From positions 248,001-312,000 of the forward strand of contig BRLC01000002.1 of assembly GCA_024343425.1 (NCBI GenBank): 64,000 nucleotides of DNA, in the 5' to 3' direction. Source of the stretch: Rhizobiaceae bacterium MnEN-MB40S (lineage in GTDB: Bacteria; Pseudomonadota; Alphaproteobacteria; Rhizobiales; Rhizobiaceae). The notes beneath the pieces are model-generated. The model worked only from the letters and a program-made list of their open reading frames with translations. It did not search any database and was not told the DNA's origin. The translations under genes were made by a program, and so were the position numbers. This document shows positions 41,435-49,305 of the stretch, piece after piece (position 1 is the stretch's first letter; the number at the start of each line of letters is the position of its first letter).

Positions 41435-43984
41435 TCACCCGCGCATGCGTTCGCCCTGCGGGTCGAAAGGCGGTTTGGTGAGAATACGGGCCGGGCGTCG
41501 TTTGCCGAGAATCTCGATCTCGAAAACGCCTTTTTCCTCGATATCGGCCATGGCGGCCGGAACGTAGCCTTGAGCGAGCGACATGTCGACATAGTGACCA
41601 TATCCGCCCGAGGTGACCCATCCTACAACGCGCCATTCCCCATCCCTTTGGGGATGTATTTTCGGCATCTCCGCGCCAGACTCATCGAATCGGGGCGCGC
41701 CATAGCCGTGCGGCGGACTGACCAGACCATGATCGACGTCGCCAACCCTGGCCCACACGGGTTCGTCGCCCATCACATCCGTGTCGTCCGCCTCGATCAC
41801 AAAACTGACGCGTCGCGCCTTCGGGCCCTTTTCGTGTTCCTCCGCCGCCTTACCCACCCCAATAAAGTCGTTTTTGGACAGTTTCACAAAACGCTCCATA
41901 GCGCCTTCATATGGGCCATAGATCGGCCTGAGTTCGGCAAACCACGTCGGGAAGTTTTTCTCCAACCGCATGGACGACAACGCCCGCATGCCGAAATCGG
42001 CGATGCCGAATTCCGCGCCGGCGTCCTTGATCGCCAGGTAAACCGTCCGTTCATAGGCCGGCTCCATCCAGATCTCGTATCCGAGATCGCCGGTATAGCT
42101 GATCCGGTTGACCTTGCAGGGGCAGCCCGCGACATCCATTTCGCGATAATCCATGAACCGGAACGCTTCGTTCGAGACATCGATGTCAGCAAGTTTTTCA
42201 AGCAAGGCGCGCGACTGAGGTCCAGCGATGGACAGACCGACAAGCTCCTGCCCGAAGCGCCGCAGACGTACAGTTCCATCAGTGGGCAGATGGCGCTCGA
42301 ACCAGCGCATGTGATAAATTTGCGCGGCCGTGGATCCCCAGACCATGAAACGTTCGTCGCCGGCGCTGGCGATCGTGAAGTCCCCGATCAACTTGCCTTC
42401 ATGATTGAGCATCGGCGTCAGCACAATGCGGCCGGGCTTCGGCATCGTGTTGGTCATCAGCCTGGACAGCCACCCGCCCGCCCCCGGGCCCGATACTTCG
42501 TATTTGGCGAAATTGGCGATCTCCGTGACGCCGACGCGTTCCCTGACGGCGCGCACCTCAGCGCCGACATGAGCGAAATCATTGGACCGATGGAAGGACA
42601 GGTCGTCTTTTGCTTCCGCGGCGCTCGGCGCAAACCATAGAGGCGTTTCCAGACCCCAGCTGTCTCCCATGACTGCGTGGTTGTCCCGCACCATGATATC
42701 GTATAGCGGCGTCGTCTGCTGCGGTCTCGCCGCCGGCAGCTCCTCGTTGGGAAAACGGATCGAGAATCTTCGGGAATAGTTTTCCCGGACCTTGGCGTTG
42801 GTGTAGCGCAGCGACGTGAAATCCCCGAATCGGGCGACATCCATGCCGAAAATGTCGTGGCCCGGATCGCCGTCGGTCATCCAGTTCGCCAAAGCAAGAC
42901 CGACGCCGCCGCCCTGCGAGAAGCCGGCCATCACGGCGCAGGCGCACCAGAAATTCGTTAGTCCCTGGACCGGTCCGACAAGCGGATTGCCATCCGGCGC
43001 GAACGTGAATGGGCCGTTGACTATCTGCTTTATGCCGGCTCTTCCGAAGGCCGGGAAGTGCTCAAACCCGACTTCAAGAGACGGCGTGATACGATCGAGA
43101 TCCGGCTGCAGCAATTCGTGCCCGAAATCCCATGGGGTCTCTTTTGCAGACCATGGCACACAGGCCTTCTCGTAGGTGCCGAGCAGCAGACCCTCGCGCT
43201 CCTGCCTGGTGTAGATCTCACCCTTGAAGTCGATGACCCCGACGAGTTCACGGCCCGAAGCCTCATTGAACTCACGGACTTCCGGCATCGATTCTGTCAG
43301 CAGATACATATGCTCCATGGCGAGCAACGGCAGTTCGAGCCCGACCATGCGTCCGACCTCCCGCGCCCACAGGCCGCCAGCATTGACGACATGATCGGTT
43401 CTGACTGTTCCCTTTTCCGTCGTCACGATCCATGTTCCATCGGGGCTCTGGGCGATATCGGTCACGCGGTTGCGCAGCTCTATCTTCGCGCCAAGTTTGC
43501 GCGCCGCCATGGCGTAGGCGTGGGTCGTCCCGGAGGGATCGAGATGGCCTTCCACCGGATCCCATAACGCACCGACAAAACGGCTTTCATCCATCAGCGG
43601 GAACATCGCCTTGGCCTCGGAAGGCGTGATAATCTCGGTATCCATCCCGAGCGCCCTGCCCGTCGCCTGCGTATAGCGCAGGAAATTCAGTCGTTCCTCG
43701 CTGTCCGCCAACATCACGCCGCCAGTGAGATGCAGCCCGCAGGACTGGCCAGACAGTTCCTCCAGTTCGCTGTAGAGGGAGACGGTATAGGCCTGCAGGC
43801 GCGCGACGTTCGGGTCACCGTTGAGCGTATGAAAGCCGCCGGCCGCGTGCCACGATGAACCCGACGTCAGTTCCGACCGCTCGACCAGAAGCACGTTCTT
43901 CCAGCCGGCCTTCGCCAGATGGTAAAGCACCGAACACCCGACAACCCCGCCGCCTATCACCACTGCGCTTGCATGTTCCTGCAT
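41435..43984 (-). CDS. Dimethylglycine/sarcosine dehydrogenase-like flavoprotein
   Basis: An 849-residue fusion, the usual DMGDH length. Residues about 1-370 form a DAO-type FAD domain (GGGVVGCSVLYHLAKAG), about 370-440 the FAO_M linker, 450-720 an aminomethyltransferase (GCV_T) fold and 740-849 its C-terminal barrel. The site for covalent FAD in DMGDH, SSWHAAGG, is intact (His about 60). It oxidatively demethylates an N-methyl amino acid; the GcvT part receives the one-carbon unit on tetrahydrofolate. ATG 43984 is preferred to an extension to 44074. Divergent from the cyclase module. Confidence 0.93.
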   Translation of the reverse strand: MQEHASAVVIGGGVVGCSVLYHLAKAGWKNVLLVERSELTSGSSWHAAGGFHTLNGDPNVARLQAYTVSLYSELEELSGQSCGLHLTGGVMLADSEERLNFLRYTQATGRALGMDTEIITPSEAKAMFPLMDESRFVGALWDPVEGHLDPSGTTHAYAMAARKLGAKIELRNRVTDIAQSPDGTWIVTTEKGTVRTDHVVNAGGLWAREVGRMVGLELPLLAMEHMYLLTESMPEVREFNEASGRELVGVIDFKGEIYTRQEREGLLLGTYEKACVPWSAKETPWDFGHELLQPDLDRITPSLEVGFEHFPAFGRAGIKQIVNGPFTFAPDGNPLVGPVQGLTNFWCACAVMAGFSQGGGVGLALANWMTDGDPGHDIFGMDVARFGDFTSLRYTNAKVRENYSRRFSIRFPNEELPAARPQQTTPLYDIMVRDNHAVMGDSWGLETPLWFAPSAAEAKDDLSFHRSNDFAHVGAEVRAVRERVGVTEIANFAKYEVSGPGAGGWLSRLMTNTMPKPGRIVLTPMLNHEGKLIGDFTIASAGDERFMVWGSTAAQIYHMRWFERHLPTDGTVRLRRFGQELVGLSIAGPQSRALLEKLADIDVSNEAFRFMDYREMDVAGCPCKVNRISYTGDLGYEIWMEPAYERTVYLAIKDAGAEFGIADFGMRALSSMRLEKNFPTWFAELRPIYGPYEGAMERFVKLSKNDFIGVGKAAEEHEKGPKARRVSFVIEADDTDVMGDEPVWARVGDVDHGLVSPPHGYGAPRFDESGAEMPKIHPQRDGEWRVVGWVTSGGYGHYVDMSLAQGYVPAAMADIEEKGVFEIEILGKRRPARILTKPPFDPQGERMRG

Positions 43985-44101
43985 CAAATCCGCCCTTTGT
44001 TCCGCAATCAGGTGAAGCCAGTCTAATGGTTGTAGTGCCAATGGACTAGCGGCAGGATACACACTAACAATCAAAGTGGACCAGTCAGATTAGGTTATGC
44101 A

Positions 44102-46297
44102 ATGGGCAAGACACCTACAGCGTTGAACGAAAGCATTCCGCGCGATGCGACGCCAGGCAGGCGCCGGCGGTTTTCCGTGCCGTTGAAGGCGACCATCCTC
44201 CTCGTCTTCGTCCTGACCACAGTGCCGGTGCTTCTCGCCATCATCGAGATCGACCAGCGCACCGGCAGTAAAGTCGTACGCACTCACGCGGCCGAGATGG
44301 TGGAACGCTTCCGGAACGAGACAATTCGTGAGATCGTGACCGAGTTCAACGCCCTCAAGGTGCTGATTTCGACCGCAGCCGAACTCGGCCGTCAAGCGCC
44401 TGACGTCTTCGAGGACGACCGCGCGCTCCGGTATCTCTTCAGCCTGCTACAACACGGCGAAACGATGCTGAACGTCTATGTCGGGCTTGAGGACGGGTCC
44501 TTCCGACAAGCACGGCGGATCCATGATCCGAACATGGATATCCACGGCGCCCGCCCGCCCGCGGGCACGGAATATGCCTATCGCCTGCTGGAACCCGATC
44601 TCGGACCATCGACACTCGACCGCTACATCTTCCTCGACAATGAACAGAATTTTCTTGGCGAGGTCTCGGCGGAAAGCGGCTACGACCCGCGCCAGCGCGC
44701 CTGGTACAAAGTGGCGGTGGACGCCGGTGCGAAGACGATTACGGATCCGGAATTGTTCTGGGCCTTCGGACTGGTGGGTTTCACGGTGGCCGAACCCTAC
44801 GAGGTCGACGGCAAGCTCGCCGGTGTGGTCGCGGCGGATGTGACTCTCGACAGCTTTTCGTCCTATCTCGCCCAGAAGCCAGTGAGTCCGAACAGCCTCA
44901 GCTACCTGCTGGACGACCACGGGATGGTCCTGGCAGCCTCGGACGGCACCACGACCTATGGTAGCGACAACGATCAGGTGTCCCTGCCGCATGTCGCGGA
45001 CGTCGAGAACCGGCTCGTCTCTTTGGCCTATTCGCAGCGGCCCGAGACTGCTGGCGCGGAAGTCTACAGGTTCAGTCACGAGGGAAGTGACTACATTGTC
45101 GGACTGTCGTCACTGGAAGAGGATCTGGACAAGCCCTGGCGGCTGATGGTGCTGACGCCGCTGAGTGATTTTACAGCCGAGTTCACGCGCAACAGCCAGC
45201 GTATGCTGGTCATCGGCCTCGTGGCCATTGCCGTTCAACTGACGATCATCTACGTGATCGCCGGCCTGATCGCCTCGCCTCTGCAGCGGCTGACCCGCAA
45301 GGTGGCGCAGATCCAGTCGCTGGAAAGCAGCGCCGACCTTCCGATGAAGCGCTCACAAATCCGCGAGGTGGACGTGCTGTCCCAGGCCATCGACACGCTC
45401 GATACCGTGGTCCAGGCATTTGCCCGCTTCGTACCCGTAGGCCTGGTGCGCGAGCTGCTGAAATCGGACCGCCAACTGGAACTGGGCGGGCAGAGCCGGT
45501 TTCTGACGATTCTCTTCTGCGATGTCGAGGCGTTCTCTACCCTCGCCGAACGGATCGCTGCGCGCGACCTGCTGGCCCGGGTCTCTGTGCTTCTGGGAGA
45601 TATCACGAAAAGGGTTCACGACCAGAAGGGAACGATCGACAAGTTCATGGGCGACGGCGTGATGGCCTTTTGGGGCGCCCCGGTGGCGCTTGACGACCAT
45701 GCCTGGCGCGGCTGTGTTGCGGCGCTGGCGATCCAGCGCGATCTCGAACGGCTAAACGCTGAATGGCGCGGCAACGATGCGCCCGAGATGCGGCTCAGGG
45801 TCGGCATCCATTCCGACGTGGTGCTGGTCGGCAATATCGGCTCGAAGGATCGGATGAGCTACACTGTCCTGGGCGACGGTGTGAACATCGCGTCGCGACT
45901 GGAAGGCTGCAACAAGATGTACGGCACGCTCGTCTGCATCAGCCACGACACGTTTAGCGAGGCGGGCGACCGGATTTGCGTGCGTCCAATCGACGAAGTG
46001 CAGGTCAAGGGTCGGCGGGCCACGATCACCATTTACGAACTGCTCGGGGCCTATGGCGCAGGCGAGATCTTCGAGCCCGACACAGAGACGCAGGAAATCG
46101 CACGGATCACCCGCACCGCCTTCGATGCGCACGTCGGCGGCGACCGGCCCGCTGCGCTAGCCGCCTATCGCGAGGTGCTGGCGATCCGCCCGGACGATCC
46201 TGTGGCAAAGCTGCACGTCAGCCGGCTGGAAGCGGACGAAGCTCTTCCGCGCGCGCAGGTCAAAATGATGGAGGGCCATGATGGCAAGTTCTCCTGA
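44102..46297 (+). CDS. Membrane adenylate cyclase (class III) with Cache sensor domain
   Basis: A 731-residue sensor cyclase. Layout: helix at about 25-45, a periplasmic dCache-like sensor (about 55-350), helix at about 365-390 with a HAMP-like segment, then a class III cyclase domain (about 455-640) and a short helical C-terminus. Cyclase residues are complete: metal aspartates in FCDVEAFST and FMGDGVMAFWGAP, adenine-site Lys in IDKFMGD and Thr in YTVLGD, transition-state Asn/Arg in GVNIASRLEG. The Cache has RQRAWYK and an Asp in VAADVTLD, part of the amino-acid Cache motif, but not its second Tyr. Makes cAMP on a periplasmic cue (inference). Confidence 0.93.
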   Translation: MGKTPTALNESIPRDATPGRRRRFSVPLKATILLVFVLTTVPVLLAIIEIDQRTGSKVVRTHAAEMVERFRNETIREIVTEFNALKVLISTAAELGRQAPDVFEDDRALRYLFSLLQHGETMLNVYVGLEDGSFRQARRIHDPNMDIHGARPPAGTEYAYRLLEPDLGPSTLDRYIFLDNEQNFLGEVSAESGYDPRQRAWYKVAVDAGAKTITDPELFWAFGLVGFTVAEPYEVDGKLAGVVAADVTLDSFSSYLAQKPVSPNSLSYLLDDHGMVLAASDGTTTYGSDNDQVSLPHVADVENRLVSLAYSQRPETAGAEVYRFSHEGSDYIVGLSSLEEDLDKPWRLMVLTPLSDFTAEFTRNSQRMLVIGLVAIAVQLTIIYVIAGLIASPLQRLTRKVAQIQSLESSADLPMKRSQIREVDVLSQAIDTLDTVVQAFARFVPVGLVRELLKSDRQLELGGQSRFLTILFCDVEAFSTLAERIAARDLLARVSVLLGDITKRVHDQKGTIDKFMGDGVMAFWGAPVALDDHAWRGCVAALAIQRDLERLNAEWRGNDAPEMRLRVGIHSDVVLVGNIGSKDRMSYTVLGDGVNIASRLEGCNKMYGTLVCISHDTFSEAGDRICVRPIDEVQVKGRRATITIYELLGAYGAGEIFEPDTETQEIARITRTAFDAHVGGDRPAALAAYREVLAIRPDDPVAKLHVSRLEADEALPRAQVKMMEGHDGKFS

Positions 46298-46988
46298 AGT
46301 TTCCGCCACCGACAAATTTCGCCCGAGTGATTACTCGGCGGCGCTGGTCTACTGCCTCCTGCAACACGGAACCTGGGCGCACGGTGCGCGAGTGCTCGAT
46401 GTCGGCTGCGGCAGCGGCGTTCTCCTTGCGGCGGCCGGCTCGGCCGGAGCGGTTCATCTTTGCGGAGTCGATATCGAGGCCGACGCCGTCGCCGCGACGA
46501 GCGCGCTACTGGACAGGCTCGGCCACTCGGGCGCCCGCGAAGTCCACCTCGGCAAAATGTTCGAGCCAGTCGCGGGACTCCGCTTTGACCTTGTCCTGGC
46601 CAATCTACCCCACTTTCCCATGGACGGGCCGCCGGTCGACGGACGACATATGTCGTGGAGCAACGGCGGCGCAGACGGGCGCAGACTGATAGATCGCTTC
46701 CTCGACGGCCTTGCCGCGCATCTGGAGCCAGACGGACATGCGCTGGTCATGCACAACGATTTCATCGGTCTCGACCGTACGCGGGAGTTGGCCGGGCAGC
46801 ACGGACTGGCAGTCGAGATCGCCGACAAGATCATGGTTCCGATTCCGGACGCCAAGCTTGCCGTAATGTCCGATGACGTCCTGGAGCGCGAGACGGGGCT
46901 GTCGATTCGCCGCTTTGGCGACTATACCTTCGGCGCGATCTCGGTCCTGGTGATCAAACATGCGACAAAGGGGAAGGAGCCGTCATGA
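46281..46988 (+). CDS. SAM-dependent methyltransferase, HemK/PrmC-like
   Basis: A 235-residue class I methyltransferase. SAM motif I is VLDVGCGSGVLLAAAG, motif II VDIEADAVAA, and the catalytic loop reads LANLPHFPM, a variant of the NPPY signature of Gln/Asn N-methyltransferases. A GGADGRRLIDRFL block is also typical of HemK proteins. ATG 46281 has GGAGGG five bases upstream (46278 is the alternative). It overlaps the cyclase end by 17 bases and the next gene by four, so it is coupled within the module. Target unknown: it may modify a module protein or a small ligand. Confidence 0.9.
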   Translation: MASSPEVSATDKFRPSDYSAALVYCLLQHGTWAHGARVLDVGCGSGVLLAAAGSAGAVHLCGVDIEADAVAATSALLDRLGHSGAREVHLGKMFEPVAGLRFDLVLANLPHFPMDGPPVDGRHMSWSNGGADGRRLIDRFLDGLAAHLEPDGHALVMHNDFIGLDRTRELAGQHGLAVEIADKIMVPIPDAKLAVMSDDVLERETGLSIRRFGDYTFGAISVLVIKHATKGKEPS

Positions 46989-48658
46989 TCGGTGCGCTAC
47001 GGGGCACTTTGGCAGTGCTTGTACTCGTCCTTCTGGCGGCGCTCTCACCTGCACGCGCCGAAACACCGGACGAGGCGCTGGACGCCCTGCTTGCCAAGGT
47101 CCGGTCCGAGATTCCCGAGGCCTGCGACAAGGAGGACGCCGACACACTGGTCCGCATCCTGTGTACGGGCACGATGCGGGTTGGGGTCCGTTGGAACTAT
47201 CCGATGTTCTCGACCCTGGTCGGAGACACCGACGAGCGGATCGGCTACGACACCGCCGTGGCCAGCGCCATTGCGGCGCGGCTGGGGGTGAAGACGGAAT
47301 GGATCCATGTCCGCGCGGCCACCCGGATCTCGACCCTGGCCGAGGGCGGAGCCGATGTCGTCATCGCCACGATGGGGCACACCAAGCAACGCGACGGGCA
47401 GACCCGGTACATCCGCCCGCACTACTACAGCTCGGAGACCATCGTCGTGGGTGCGCGCGAACTGGACATCTCCAGCTGGGACGATATCAAAGGCTGGCGC
47501 GTTTGCAGCACCATCGGCAACCACGCAAACAGCTATCTCGTCACCCAGGACGTCCGGCTGATGTTGTTCGAGAGCGCCGTCCGCCTGCCGGAGGCGCTCG
47601 AAGACGGGACCTGCAGGCTCGCCTCCCAGGACGACAGCTTTTTCGCTTCCTTTATCGCCGTGCCGGAGTTCGGGGACCGGTTCGAGCGCAAGTTCGGCTT
47701 CCACGCGGTGCCTTGGGGCATGGCGGTGGCGCAAACCGGAAGCGATGAATTCGCCATGGCGCTGGAGCTCATCAGCGCGATCATGCATCGCGATGGCGAA
47801 TTCCTCAAAATCGGCATCGAGAACAGCGTCTTCACAGGGTTTCTCGAAGAACAGCACGACAAGTGGCAAACACCGGCCTGCGTTGATGCCTCGGCCGTCA
47901 CCGATGCGAGCTGTGTCCTGCCTGCACTCGACAACACTCCGTTGCCGACCCGCTACGCGGACGAGGTGAACGCGACCGTGGACTGGATAAAAGCCAATCT
48001 CGGCCTCGCCCTGGAACTGCCGATGCTGACCAGCGTACCGGCCTTCGAACTCTTCACCGCCGGAATCGTCAATTCCTTGATCCTGGTGATGGGCGCACTG
48101 GGTGCGACGCTCGGTTTCTCCCTCTTTTTCGGGTTCTTCGCAATGATTCCCCTGCGGGTGTCTCGTTTCGTGACCTGGGGCATCGTCACGACGATCCAGT
48201 CCTCGCCCGTTATCCTGACGCTGGTGGTCGCAGGAACGGTGGCAACCACAATCTTCACCTATTCGCCCGCCGTGGCGCTCGGCTCGGCCATCGTTGCGCT
48301 CGGGCTCATGAACGGGGCCAACGCGGGCCAGGCGATCGGCGAGGCCGCAGAGAGCCTGCAGCGGGACGGCCGGTACGGATCCGGTTTCAATGGAGCTCTC
48401 TACGGGGCTGCGGTCAGGCGGTCGTTAACGCAGATCCTGTCCTTCCTGACCAACGCGGCAAAAGGCACGCCAATCGCGAGCTTCACCGGCGCCCCGGAAC
48501 TGCTGAGCGCACTGACCGACATCACCTCCTTTTCCGCGGGCCGCGGGACAATGTACACGATGGTGCTGATATTCTACATCGCCGTCGTCTTCCTCGTCGT
48601 CTGGGCCTGCGAACGGGTCCGGACCCGGCTGAACAAGCGGGAGGAGGCGCAGGCATGA
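46985..48658 (+). CDS. Solute-binding protein/ABC permease fusion
   Basis: A 557-residue fusion: signal peptide (about 1-25), a periplasmic amino-acid-type binding domain (about 55-285; MRVGVRWNYPMFS, DVVIATMGHT), a linker with two cysteine pairs, then a HisM-like permease (about 355-550) with five or so helices. The permease has PVILTLVVAGTVA and a degenerate EAA loop (GEAAESLQRDGRYGSGFNGALYGAAVRRSLTQIL). Ligand class by family is a polar amino acid or related cation. Start overlaps the methyltransferase stop, end overlaps the second permease (ATGA). No ATPase follows. Confidence 0.9.
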   Translation: MIGALRGTLAVLVLVLLAALSPARAETPDEALDALLAKVRSEIPEACDKEDADTLVRILCTGTMRVGVRWNYPMFSTLVGDTDERIGYDTAVASAIAARLGVKTEWIHVRAATRISTLAEGGADVVIATMGHTKQRDGQTRYIRPHYYSSETIVVGARELDISSWDDIKGWRVCSTIGNHANSYLVTQDVRLMLFESAVRLPEALEDGTCRLASQDDSFFASFIAVPEFGDRFERKFGFHAVPWGMAVAQTGSDEFAMALELISAIMHRDGEFLKIGIENSVFTGFLEEQHDKWQTPACVDASAVTDASCVLPALDNTPLPTRYADEVNATVDWIKANLGLALELPMLTSVPAFELFTAGIVNSLILVMGALGATLGFSLFFGFFAMIPLRVSRFVTWGIVTTIQSSPVILTLVVAGTVATTIFTYSPAVALGSAIVALGLMNGANAGQAIGEAAESLQRDGRYGSGFNGALYGAAVRRSLTQILSFLTNAAKGTPIASFTGAPELLSALTDITSFSAGRGTMYTMVLIFYIAVVFLVVWACERVRTRLNKREEAQA

Positions 48659-49305
48659 CCAGTCTGACCGATCTTCTCGCAAGCAACTATCCCCGGGACC
48701 TGGCGACCGGGATGGTCGTCAATTTCCAGATCGCAGCCATCGCGCTGGGGCTGGGTCTCGCACTCGGGGCGCCCTTCGTTCTCCTGCTGCTCGGAGGCAA
48801 GCTGACGCGCCGGCTGGCGAGCCCGCTGATCGGGCTGATGCGGGCGGCTCCGACATTCGTGGTGATGTTCTTCCTTCTCAACATCATTCCCCGTCCCTTC
48901 CTCTTCTTCGGGACCGAAGTGTATTTGCCCCCTTCGCTGATCGTCGCCCTGTCGCTGACGCCCTATGCAGCAGCCTACGTCGCCGACAACGGCCGCGCCG
49001 CGCTTTTAGGGTTGCGCGCCGGATCGCAGACCGAGGCGCTGTTGTTCATGCCGAATCTGATCCGGGCCTTCACCGTTCTGGTCATGTCGTCGAGCGCGGG
49101 CGTCGCCATCGGTGTGAACGAAGGCGTCGCCGTCGTCCTGCGCGAGGCCGAGCGCTTGCCGACACTGGGCGAACAGATGCTGTGCTTCGCCTTCGGTGTC
49201 TTCGCCTTCGGCGCGGTGTTCCAGGTCGGCTTTGCCATTGTCCGCGTGATGATGCGCCACCTGTCCCGGCGCAAGGACGCCGACGCCATCCATGCTGGTG
49301 AATAG
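48655..49305 (+). CDS. ABC permease, HisMQ-type (second subunit)
   Basis: A 216-residue polar-amino-acid-type permease with five helices: NFQIAAIALGLGLALGAPFVLLLLGGKLTRR, RAAPTFVVMFFLLN. The EAA loop region is only weakly preserved (GLRAGSQTEALLFMPNLIRAFTVLVM). It closes the four-gene module, presumably pairing with the fusion permease. The expected ATPase gene is absent before nusB; 244 non-coding bases and a terminator come next. Confidence 0.9.
   Translation: MTSLTDLLASNYPRDLATGMVVNFQIAAIALGLGLALGAPFVLLLLGGKLTRRLASPLIGLMRAAPTFVVMFFLLNIIPRPFLFFGTEVYLPPSLIVALSLTPYAAAYVADNGRAALLGLRAGSQTEALLFMPNLIRAFTVLVMSSSAGVAIGVNEGVAVVLREAERLPTLGEQMLCFAFGVFAFGAVFQVGFAIVRVMMRHLSRRKDADAIHAGE

Follow-up and report, generated by a model that had tools for sequence, protein, structure and literature searches.

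A four-gene unit with a cyclase, a methyltransferase and two permeases

The genome of Rhizobiaceae bacterium MnEN-MB40S (assembly GCA_024343425.1) carries, on contig BRLC01000002.1, a four-gene unit which we describe here as a candidate receptor derived from an amino-acid importer. It lies within a stretch of 64,000 nucleotides (contig positions 248,001 to 312,000) that was analysed as a whole and is called the window; coordinates given without a locus name are window positions. The four open reading frames (ORFs) are on the + strand and encode a Cache-adenylate cyclase (731 amino acids (aa), 44102..46297), an S-adenosylmethionine (SAM)-dependent methyltransferase (236 aa, 46278..46988), a tethered amino-acid-type solute-binding domain fused to a permease domain (557 aa, 46985..48658) and a second permease of the ATP-binding cassette (ABC) importer type (216 aa, 48655..49305). 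Consecutive frames overlap by 20, 4 and 4 bases. A preliminary description of this DNA had given overlaps of 4 to 17 bases; both four-base overlaps stand, while 17 bases for the first one applies only from the methyltransferase's second ATG. Its view of the four genes as one unit holds, as the ORFs are confirmed and the set recurs, with its order kept, in many other genomes. Between 49305 and the next gene (nusB by eye) the ORF list of the window shows no long frame able to be an ATPase, in agreement with what had been described.

The cyclase is built from a transmembrane segment, a periplasmic dCache domain, a second transmembrane segment, a linker, a class III nucleotide cyclase domain and a short C-terminal tail, the transmembrane segments being assigned by eye. 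Two families match above their curated Pfam cut-offs: dCache_1 with 51.8 bits versus 45 (matched part residues 176-335, 44627..45106, +) and Guanylate_cyc with 57.4 bits versus 21.9 (residues 468-646, 45503..46039, +). The TPR likeness of the C-terminal tail is weak (E 0.008). Residues D474, K514, D518, T588, N595 and R599 are all present in the window's cyclase and invariant in 67 of 67 aligned cyclases. Both the complete catalytic site and the periplasmic sensor had been claimed before and are borne out. We take D474 and D518 to be metal-binding, K514 and T588 to select the base, and N595 and R599 to form the transition-state pair; on this assumption the K/T pair suggests ATP as substrate, and the predicted product is cyclic AMP (cAMP) rather than cyclic GMP. 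Conservation counts here and below omit short sequences, so that 67 of 71 cyclases, 74 of 76 methyltransferases, 78 of 81 fusions and 81 of 81 permeases were kept. The window's own genome has 13 further cyclase matches besides that of the module, so inputs to cAMP may be numerous.

Several SAM-methyltransferase families of Pfam match the second gene, MTS with 39.6 bits against a cut-off of 23. The glycine motif for SAM binding is present, with G43 and G45 found in 74 of 74 methyltransferases, and N109 and P111 are likewise invariant (74/74). Motif IV reads NLPHFP in the window and in 67 of 76 methyltransferases overall; a single one of the 76 has NPPQFP. NPPY is motif IV of the HemK/PrmC/MTQ2 glutamine methyltransferases, and NLPY-type motifs are associated with base-amino methylation. 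The preliminary description had called the enzyme HemK-like. That it is a SAM methyltransferase stands; the likeness to HemK applies only in a loose sense, given the NLPHF motif and NCBIfam scores below cut-off (TIGR00537 62.4 versus 87, PrmC 41.4 versus 199.1). With a motif IV that is not NPPY and the association of NLPY with base-amino methylation, no target can be assigned, be it a protein or a nucleotide.

Recurrence of the module

A scan of named genomes with the second permease yields 80 loci, in which the fusion is found 80 times, the methyltransferase 75 times and the cyclase 70 times, in the window's order; the window and these loci are referred to as the cyclase clade. Four of the 70 loci with a cyclase hold part of it only, and eight of the ten without one run into a contig end. 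Carriers include Flavimaribacter, a Pararhizobium-labelled metagenome-assembled genome (MAG), Chachezhania, Ruegeria, Pseudodonghicola, Marinibacterium, Reyranella, Nisaea, Enhydrobacter, Acetobacteraceae and others. A few loci bear Betaproteobacteria or Lautropia MAG labels, perhaps through misbinning. All 66 complete loci show an overlap between the fusion and permease genes, which measures 4 bases in 63. The 80 loci overlap with the other set of loci analysed (for example L059/L116 and L060/L117), and their counts are kept separate. A scan of viral contigs with the second permease gave no relative, and plasmids gave no match to the window's permease. When plasmids were scanned with the fusion, 608 records matched, one of them at a coverage of at least 80%; the two examined are importers annotated with an ATPase.

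Importer-type features of the fusion and the second permease

The third gene is matched by SBP_bac_3 (E 4e-18), and the domain spans 47177..47812 (+). Its residues R136 and D216 align with an Arg and an Asp of the ancestral arginine-binding protein 4zv1, positions that we take to be the amino-acid anchors, and both are invariant in 78 of 78 fusions. The two invariant residues point to an amino-acid-like ligand. The permease half of the fusion (48035..48655, +) and the second permease are not matched by PF00528, and the latter is without any Pfam match.

For structure prediction with AlphaFold we used alignments of the window's own sequences with 58 of the 76 listed fusions and 61 of the 80 listed permeases, thinned by hand. 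The model of the second permease (predicted local distance difference test (pLDDT) 87.3, predicted template modelling score (pTM) 0.80) has the fold of an ABC-importer permease, and its closest fold is the ArtQ-type chain 4yms_C (Z 19.0, root-mean-square deviation 3.3, 192 aligned). The permease profile has a sole, weak match among PDB sequences, 4yms_D (E 5.4e-05); the names ArtQ and ArtN for the 4yms chains are our assumption. In the model of the fusion (pLDDT 87.8, pTM 0.73) the binding domain adopts the usual fold of amino-acid-binding proteins. Binding proteins fill the fold matches of the whole model, and the permease half was assigned by sequence alignment and by the AlphaFold helices. 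The earlier assignment to the polar-amino-acid importer type is upheld for the second permease by a predicted ArtQ-like fold, and for the fused half it is suggested by alignment.

The coupling loop is deleted in the second permease and no ATPase adjoins the module

Each membrane domain of an importer has an EAA motif holding the coupling helix that touches the ATPase, according to the portion of PMC7658222 consulted. We measured the aligned segment spanning the EAA/coupling-helix region. Its length was relied on because an expression for the EAA motif itself mis-sorted sequences: it matched four fusions (L042, L044, L045 and L096) and missed two canonical permeases. In canonical importers the segment has 67 aa, in 7 of 7 second and 10 of 10 first permeases. 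The same length is found in 30 of 30 control permeases, taken from the matches listed when 61 genomes of the same order were scanned; for 26 of them the fetched flanks contain an ATPase match, and the four without one still have 67 aa. One control, L215, is the same gene as the canonical L048. The second permeases of the module have 47 aa (18/18, and 8 more sequences), which corresponds to a deletion of 20 residues. In the window the deletion lies in the D111-E156 stretch (48985..49122, +), which is 46 aa long in 81 of 81 second permeases of the cyclase clade. A relative from Vibrio (L243) has a segment of 40 aa. The permease of L101, cut at a contig end, was excluded from loop counts and tree. 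In the fusions the segment is shortened, to 49-58 aa in 19 of 19 and to 57-63 aa in 8 more; the window's has 58 aa versus 67. Thus, the coupling loop of an importer is not found in the second permease, and in the fusion it is present in shortened form with a partial motif.

No polar-amino-acid ATPase adjoins the module in any of the 80 loci, within the sequence covered (11 loci extend less than 1 kb past the permease). Ten of the 80 match the ATPase query with 28-34% identity, the nearest about 1 kb off on the opposite strand. The four genes co-occur widely and no paired ATPase gene is seen in relatives, so that neither of the two findings by which the preliminary description would have been refuted was made.

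That description had also considered an ordinary importer that uses an ATPase from another locus. Some other importers do share ATPases, as far as the consulted part of PMC7658222 goes. The window's own genome has seven matches to an ordinary polar-amino-acid permease, whose ATPases could serve, and the fusion's loop is longer than that of the second permease. However, the loop is deleted in the second permease of the window and of all 80 relatives, which makes borrowing unlikely, and ordinary permeases keep it at full length even in the four cases without a flanking ATPase match. The few ATPase-query matches near the module are also distant in sequence, none adjoining it. We strongly disfavour this explanation and regard it as very improbable. 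The loss of a functional part may equally look like decay, with an importer remnant standing beside a cyclase by chance. This is hardly credible, since the deletion in the second permease has an invariant length, the frames are intact over a wide divergence, neither the binding anchors nor the membrane motifs vary, and the gene order is kept in many genera.

Related loop-deleted systems have other signalling partners

Wider relatives were sampled from 21 of 38 other matching genomes and, in a scan of another class, from three new ones of 17. A fusion and permease with the same kind of loop deletion are found next to a SpoIIE phosphatase in other Hyphomicrobiales as well as elsewhere. The SpoIIE-type module spans L044:3865-8545, and modules of the same kind are found in L042, L043, L045, L061-L063 and L096-L098. 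Ten were checked for a HATPase_c_2-like domain: it shares a reading frame with the permease in four (L042, L043, L044 and L096), is separate in four (L045, L061, L062 and L063) and was not detected in L097 and L098. In both loci scanned with Pfam (L044 and L061), SpoIIE and HATPase_c_2 are above cut-off, and HAMP is also present. These partners presumably recall the phosphatase/anti-sigma-kinase partner switching of the RsbU/RsbW type. Downstream of the SpoIIE-type module there is a xanthine/uracil-type permease with a C-terminal extension (L044:1041-2798, also in L042, L043, L062 and L063, and distant in L061); by eye, the extension is like a degenerate kinase-like domain. Divergent from the module, a free-standing second family 3 binding protein is encoded (L044:8627-9508, also in L042 and L061-L063), which may share the receptor.

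The signalling genes also occur with importers that have kept their loops. In L105:4416-12627 and L106:6268-13484, genes for SpoIIE, a HATPase_c_2-like protein, a methyltransferase and an ABC ATPase lie near those for a solute-binding protein, a fusion and a permease, all importer and signalling genes of L106 being on one strand. Loops of 67 aa are found in both permeases of L105, L106 and L108, and PF00528 is detected in L105. L105 and L106 resemble a possible evolutionary intermediate between importer and receptor. In a tree of 44 second permeases, built with the loop omitted, the canonical permeases and those of L105, L106 and L108 group together at 100/99, apart from the loop-deleted rows. 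This tree, which has long branches and open forks and displays no root, fits one loss of the loop followed by a change of output.

Loop-deleted pairs extend further. L209 and L210, which come from a different class of the phylum, have such a fusion and permease; in L209 a methyltransferase stands directly before the pair, and the two neighbours scanned in L210 match no family. On a plasmid of Vibrio sp. THAF191d (L243:4531-9666), genes for a methyltransferase, a fusion, a permease and a Cache-type membrane protein overlap successively. The Cache-type protein scores below the cut-off for dCache_1 (36.0 versus 45) and just above it for PDC (28 versus 27), and its C-terminal half matches no Pfam family even at E 10. 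An ion-channel reading of this C-terminus is not claimed: its best PDB matches, one of them a proton-gated channel, have E 0.96.

The varied partners bear on another explanation, in which the permease pair is an ATP-independent facilitator or channel that lets a solute through passively while the cyclase detects this solute by its own Cache domain. Across the module loci the permease has a highly conserved membrane core, as a solute path would need, and solitary transporter cores working without an ATPase exist elsewhere. A passive pore leaves unexplained the anti-sigma-kinase-like fusions and the varied signalling partners of related permeases, though, and would have little use for a tethered binding protein. 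We consider it quite unlikely. The loop deletion, together with signalling genes that stand beside related permeases and are sometimes fused to them, speaks for sensing rather than uptake, one of the two possibilities raised in the preliminary description.

A proposed receptor and the place of the methyltransferase

We find it reasonably likely that the four-gene unit is an amino-acid importer turned into an ATP-independent receptor, which probably controls the cyclase. The fusion and the second permease would together make up the two-permease membrane core that remains of a polar-amino-acid ABC importer, the binding protein being tethered to it on the outside; this pairing is suggested by homology. 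Judged from sequence, the second permease appears to have lost its ATPase-coupling loop and the fusion to have a shortened one, with no ATPase gene beside them. An amino-acid-like ligand would close the binding domain onto the permease pair, and the change would be relayed across the membrane to the Cache-adenylate cyclase next to it, altering cAMP output. We propose this relay because the gene linkage is fixed and because related permeases are fused to an anti-sigma-kinase-like domain beside SpoIIE. The methyltransferase might, more speculatively, modify a component of the complex and for example tune its sensitivity. Compared with what marks a transporter-derived receptor, a transporter fold and lost coupling are indicated by sequence, and a signalling partnership is suggested by gene linkage and, in 4 of 10 related loci, by a fused domain.

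Several observations weigh against this reading. As far as the alignments tell, the second permease has clearly lost coupling, and the fusion less clearly: the segment ranges over 52-66 aa in 78 cyclase-clade fusions (measured on a segment one residue longer, 53-67, and reduced by one), so that the nearest is one residue short of 67, an EA(A/M) tripeptide is kept in many of them, and the gap might be placed otherwise. A contact of the permeases with the cyclase is presumed, and the cyclase, which has a Cache sensor of its own, might work without them. Distances among the module's proteins correlate at 0.84-0.94, which is expected also from shared species history. L108 has intact loops, yet its 15 kb show no SpoIIE and no ATPase close by. 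To be noted, two of the 80 loci (L172 and L195) have upstream sequence in which the cyclase was not found, and L212, found separately on a contig of 7.8 kb, carries the methyltransferase-fusion-permease trio without an adjacent cyclase.

Because L172, L195 and L212 keep these three genes together, the methyltransferase may be a closer partner of the permeases than the cyclase. Indeed, it could be the receptor's main output or target, with solute sensing steering methylation and the cyclase and cAMP as an add-on in most lineages. A methyltransferase also accompanies the related systems. Two families are involved: the window's own is found throughout the cyclase clade, and the other one in 9 of 11 SpoIIE-type loci (including L044, which supplied the query) and in L105, L106, L209 and L243. 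The second family directly precedes the fusion in L097, L098, L209 and L243; it was not found in L108, L096, L101 or L210, nor in any of 14 canonical ABC loci. Since one family recurs in the module and the other in related loci, the latter in none of the 14 canonical ones, a methyltransferase looks, by its sequence distribution, like a real part of the receptor system across output types. As the main output it is less convincing: nearly all cyclase-clade loci with upstream sequence carry the cyclase, the two families differ so that a shared substrate is not evident, and the absence of the cyclase was judged at the loci rather than genome-wide, for L212 on a short contig. We hold this alternative to be improbable, though less so than a passive facilitator.

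The receptor reading may be generalised. Tentatively, with slightly less confidence than an even chance would deserve, we suggest that the loci represent an undescribed class of receptors of Proteobacteria, which arose from amino-acid ABC importers via one 20-residue deletion that took away the hold on the ATPase, and in which the outputs were swapped (cAMP, SpoIIE/anti-sigma-kinase, and perhaps others as in Vibrio) while a dedicated methyltransferase adapts or relays the signal.

Comparison with known systems

Sensors derived from transporters are known as a kind; the version built from an ABC importer appears undescribed in the literature searched. Searches of the open-licence PMC literature turned up neither this gene set nor an amino-acid permease receptor that lacks an ATPase. 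Polar amino acid ABC importers of the ArtQ/ArtN type (4yms) share with the module the family 3 binding domain, two homologous permeases and the fold of the second permease; unlike them, the module has no ATPase gene in sight, its loops are deleted or shortened, and it is linked to a cyclase and a methyltransferase. Class III adenylate cyclases that contain Cache domains share their domain order and catalytic residues with the window's cyclase. In the related SpoIIE-type loci, a kinase-like domain is fused or adjacent to the ATPase-free permease, and the window's module has the cyclase instead.

The GlnH-GlnX-PknG system of Actinobacteria, encoded in one operon, is similar in design: a binding protein for amino acids, derived from an importer, is proposed to signal via a membrane protein to a cytoplasmic signalling enzyme (PMC6069109, in part). 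GlnX is described as having four-helix-bundle sensor domains in place of a permease pair, the output PknG is a Ser/Thr kinase, and the system as described in the consulted part of this source includes no cyclase or methyltransferase, unlike the module. In KsAmt5, an ammonium-transporter domain is fused to a histidine kinase; it is reported to bind rather than efficiently transport, and to control the attached enzyme (PMC8534201, in part). Its transporter family and its histidine kinase output differ from those of the module. The same portion of PMC8534201 treats two further systems. BceAB-BceS is alike in using an ABC transporter as co-sensor, but there the activity of the ABC transporter BceAB is described as what is sensed. 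BvgS likewise has binding-protein domains as sensor, without a permease part. GlnH-GlnX-PknG, KsAmt5 and the Bce systems are the nearest published designs found, and an importer permease pair lacking its ATPase is used in none of them.

Few membrane machines are as common as binding-protein-dependent ABC importers, and permeases like those of the module are readily annotated as transporters. If our reading is true, this annotation would be wrong for a whole class. The steps from importer to receptor would become traceable, from the importer through the addition of signalling genes and the loss of loop and ATPase to the swapping of outputs. Furthermore, there would be a handle on the inputs of some alphaproteobacterial adenylate cyclases, with a deletion that is recognisable from sequence alone.

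Neighbouring genes and origin of the module

The genes that flank the four vary by lineage. Recurrent neighbours (amidase, galactarate dehydratase, short-chain dehydrogenase/reductase, TctC and Cu/Zn superoxide dismutase) come mostly from Reyranella loci, look lineage-specific and were set aside. In the window, the divergent neighbour at 41435-44074 (-) encodes a fused DAO-GcvT oxidoreductase/aminomethyltransferase. It was dropped as a hint to the ligand, with matches in 2 of 80 loci, both of the same genus.

Among 297 Rhizobiaceae genomes of 109 genera, eight matched the second permease. Three of the eight have the module and all belong to the window's genus, three are SpoIIE-type, and two (L064 and L065) have the permease beside an ATPase of polar-amino-acid type. 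The two relatives of the same genus have permeases 94-96% identical to the window's and carry the module at the same genomic place. The tree places the window's permease among those of Paracoccaceae and Roseobacteraceae. Comparison with GlyA, a gene named by eye, is mixed. Between the window and Flavimaribacter, GlyA is 99% identical, the cyclase 95%, the permease 96%, the fusion 95% and the methyltransferase 93%. With Chachezhania the values are 70% for GlyA, whose match holds a stop, 77% for the cyclase, 78% for the permease, 72% for the fusion and 69% for the methyltransferase. Against Ruegeria, Marinibacterium, Pseudodonghicola, Reyranella and Nisaea, identity is higher for GlyA (67-75%) than for the module.

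From the distribution and the tree, horizontal transfer of the module is likely; GlyA helps only for the Chachezhania lineage. The preliminary description had suspected transfer from a raised GC content, 66 and 69 against 57 in hand-counted samples. Over its full length the module has 63.2% GC, and the two flanking segments of 10 kb have 59.7% and 59.4%, so the increase is real and smaller than those samples had indicated, and it agrees with the family distribution and the tree in suggesting transfer.

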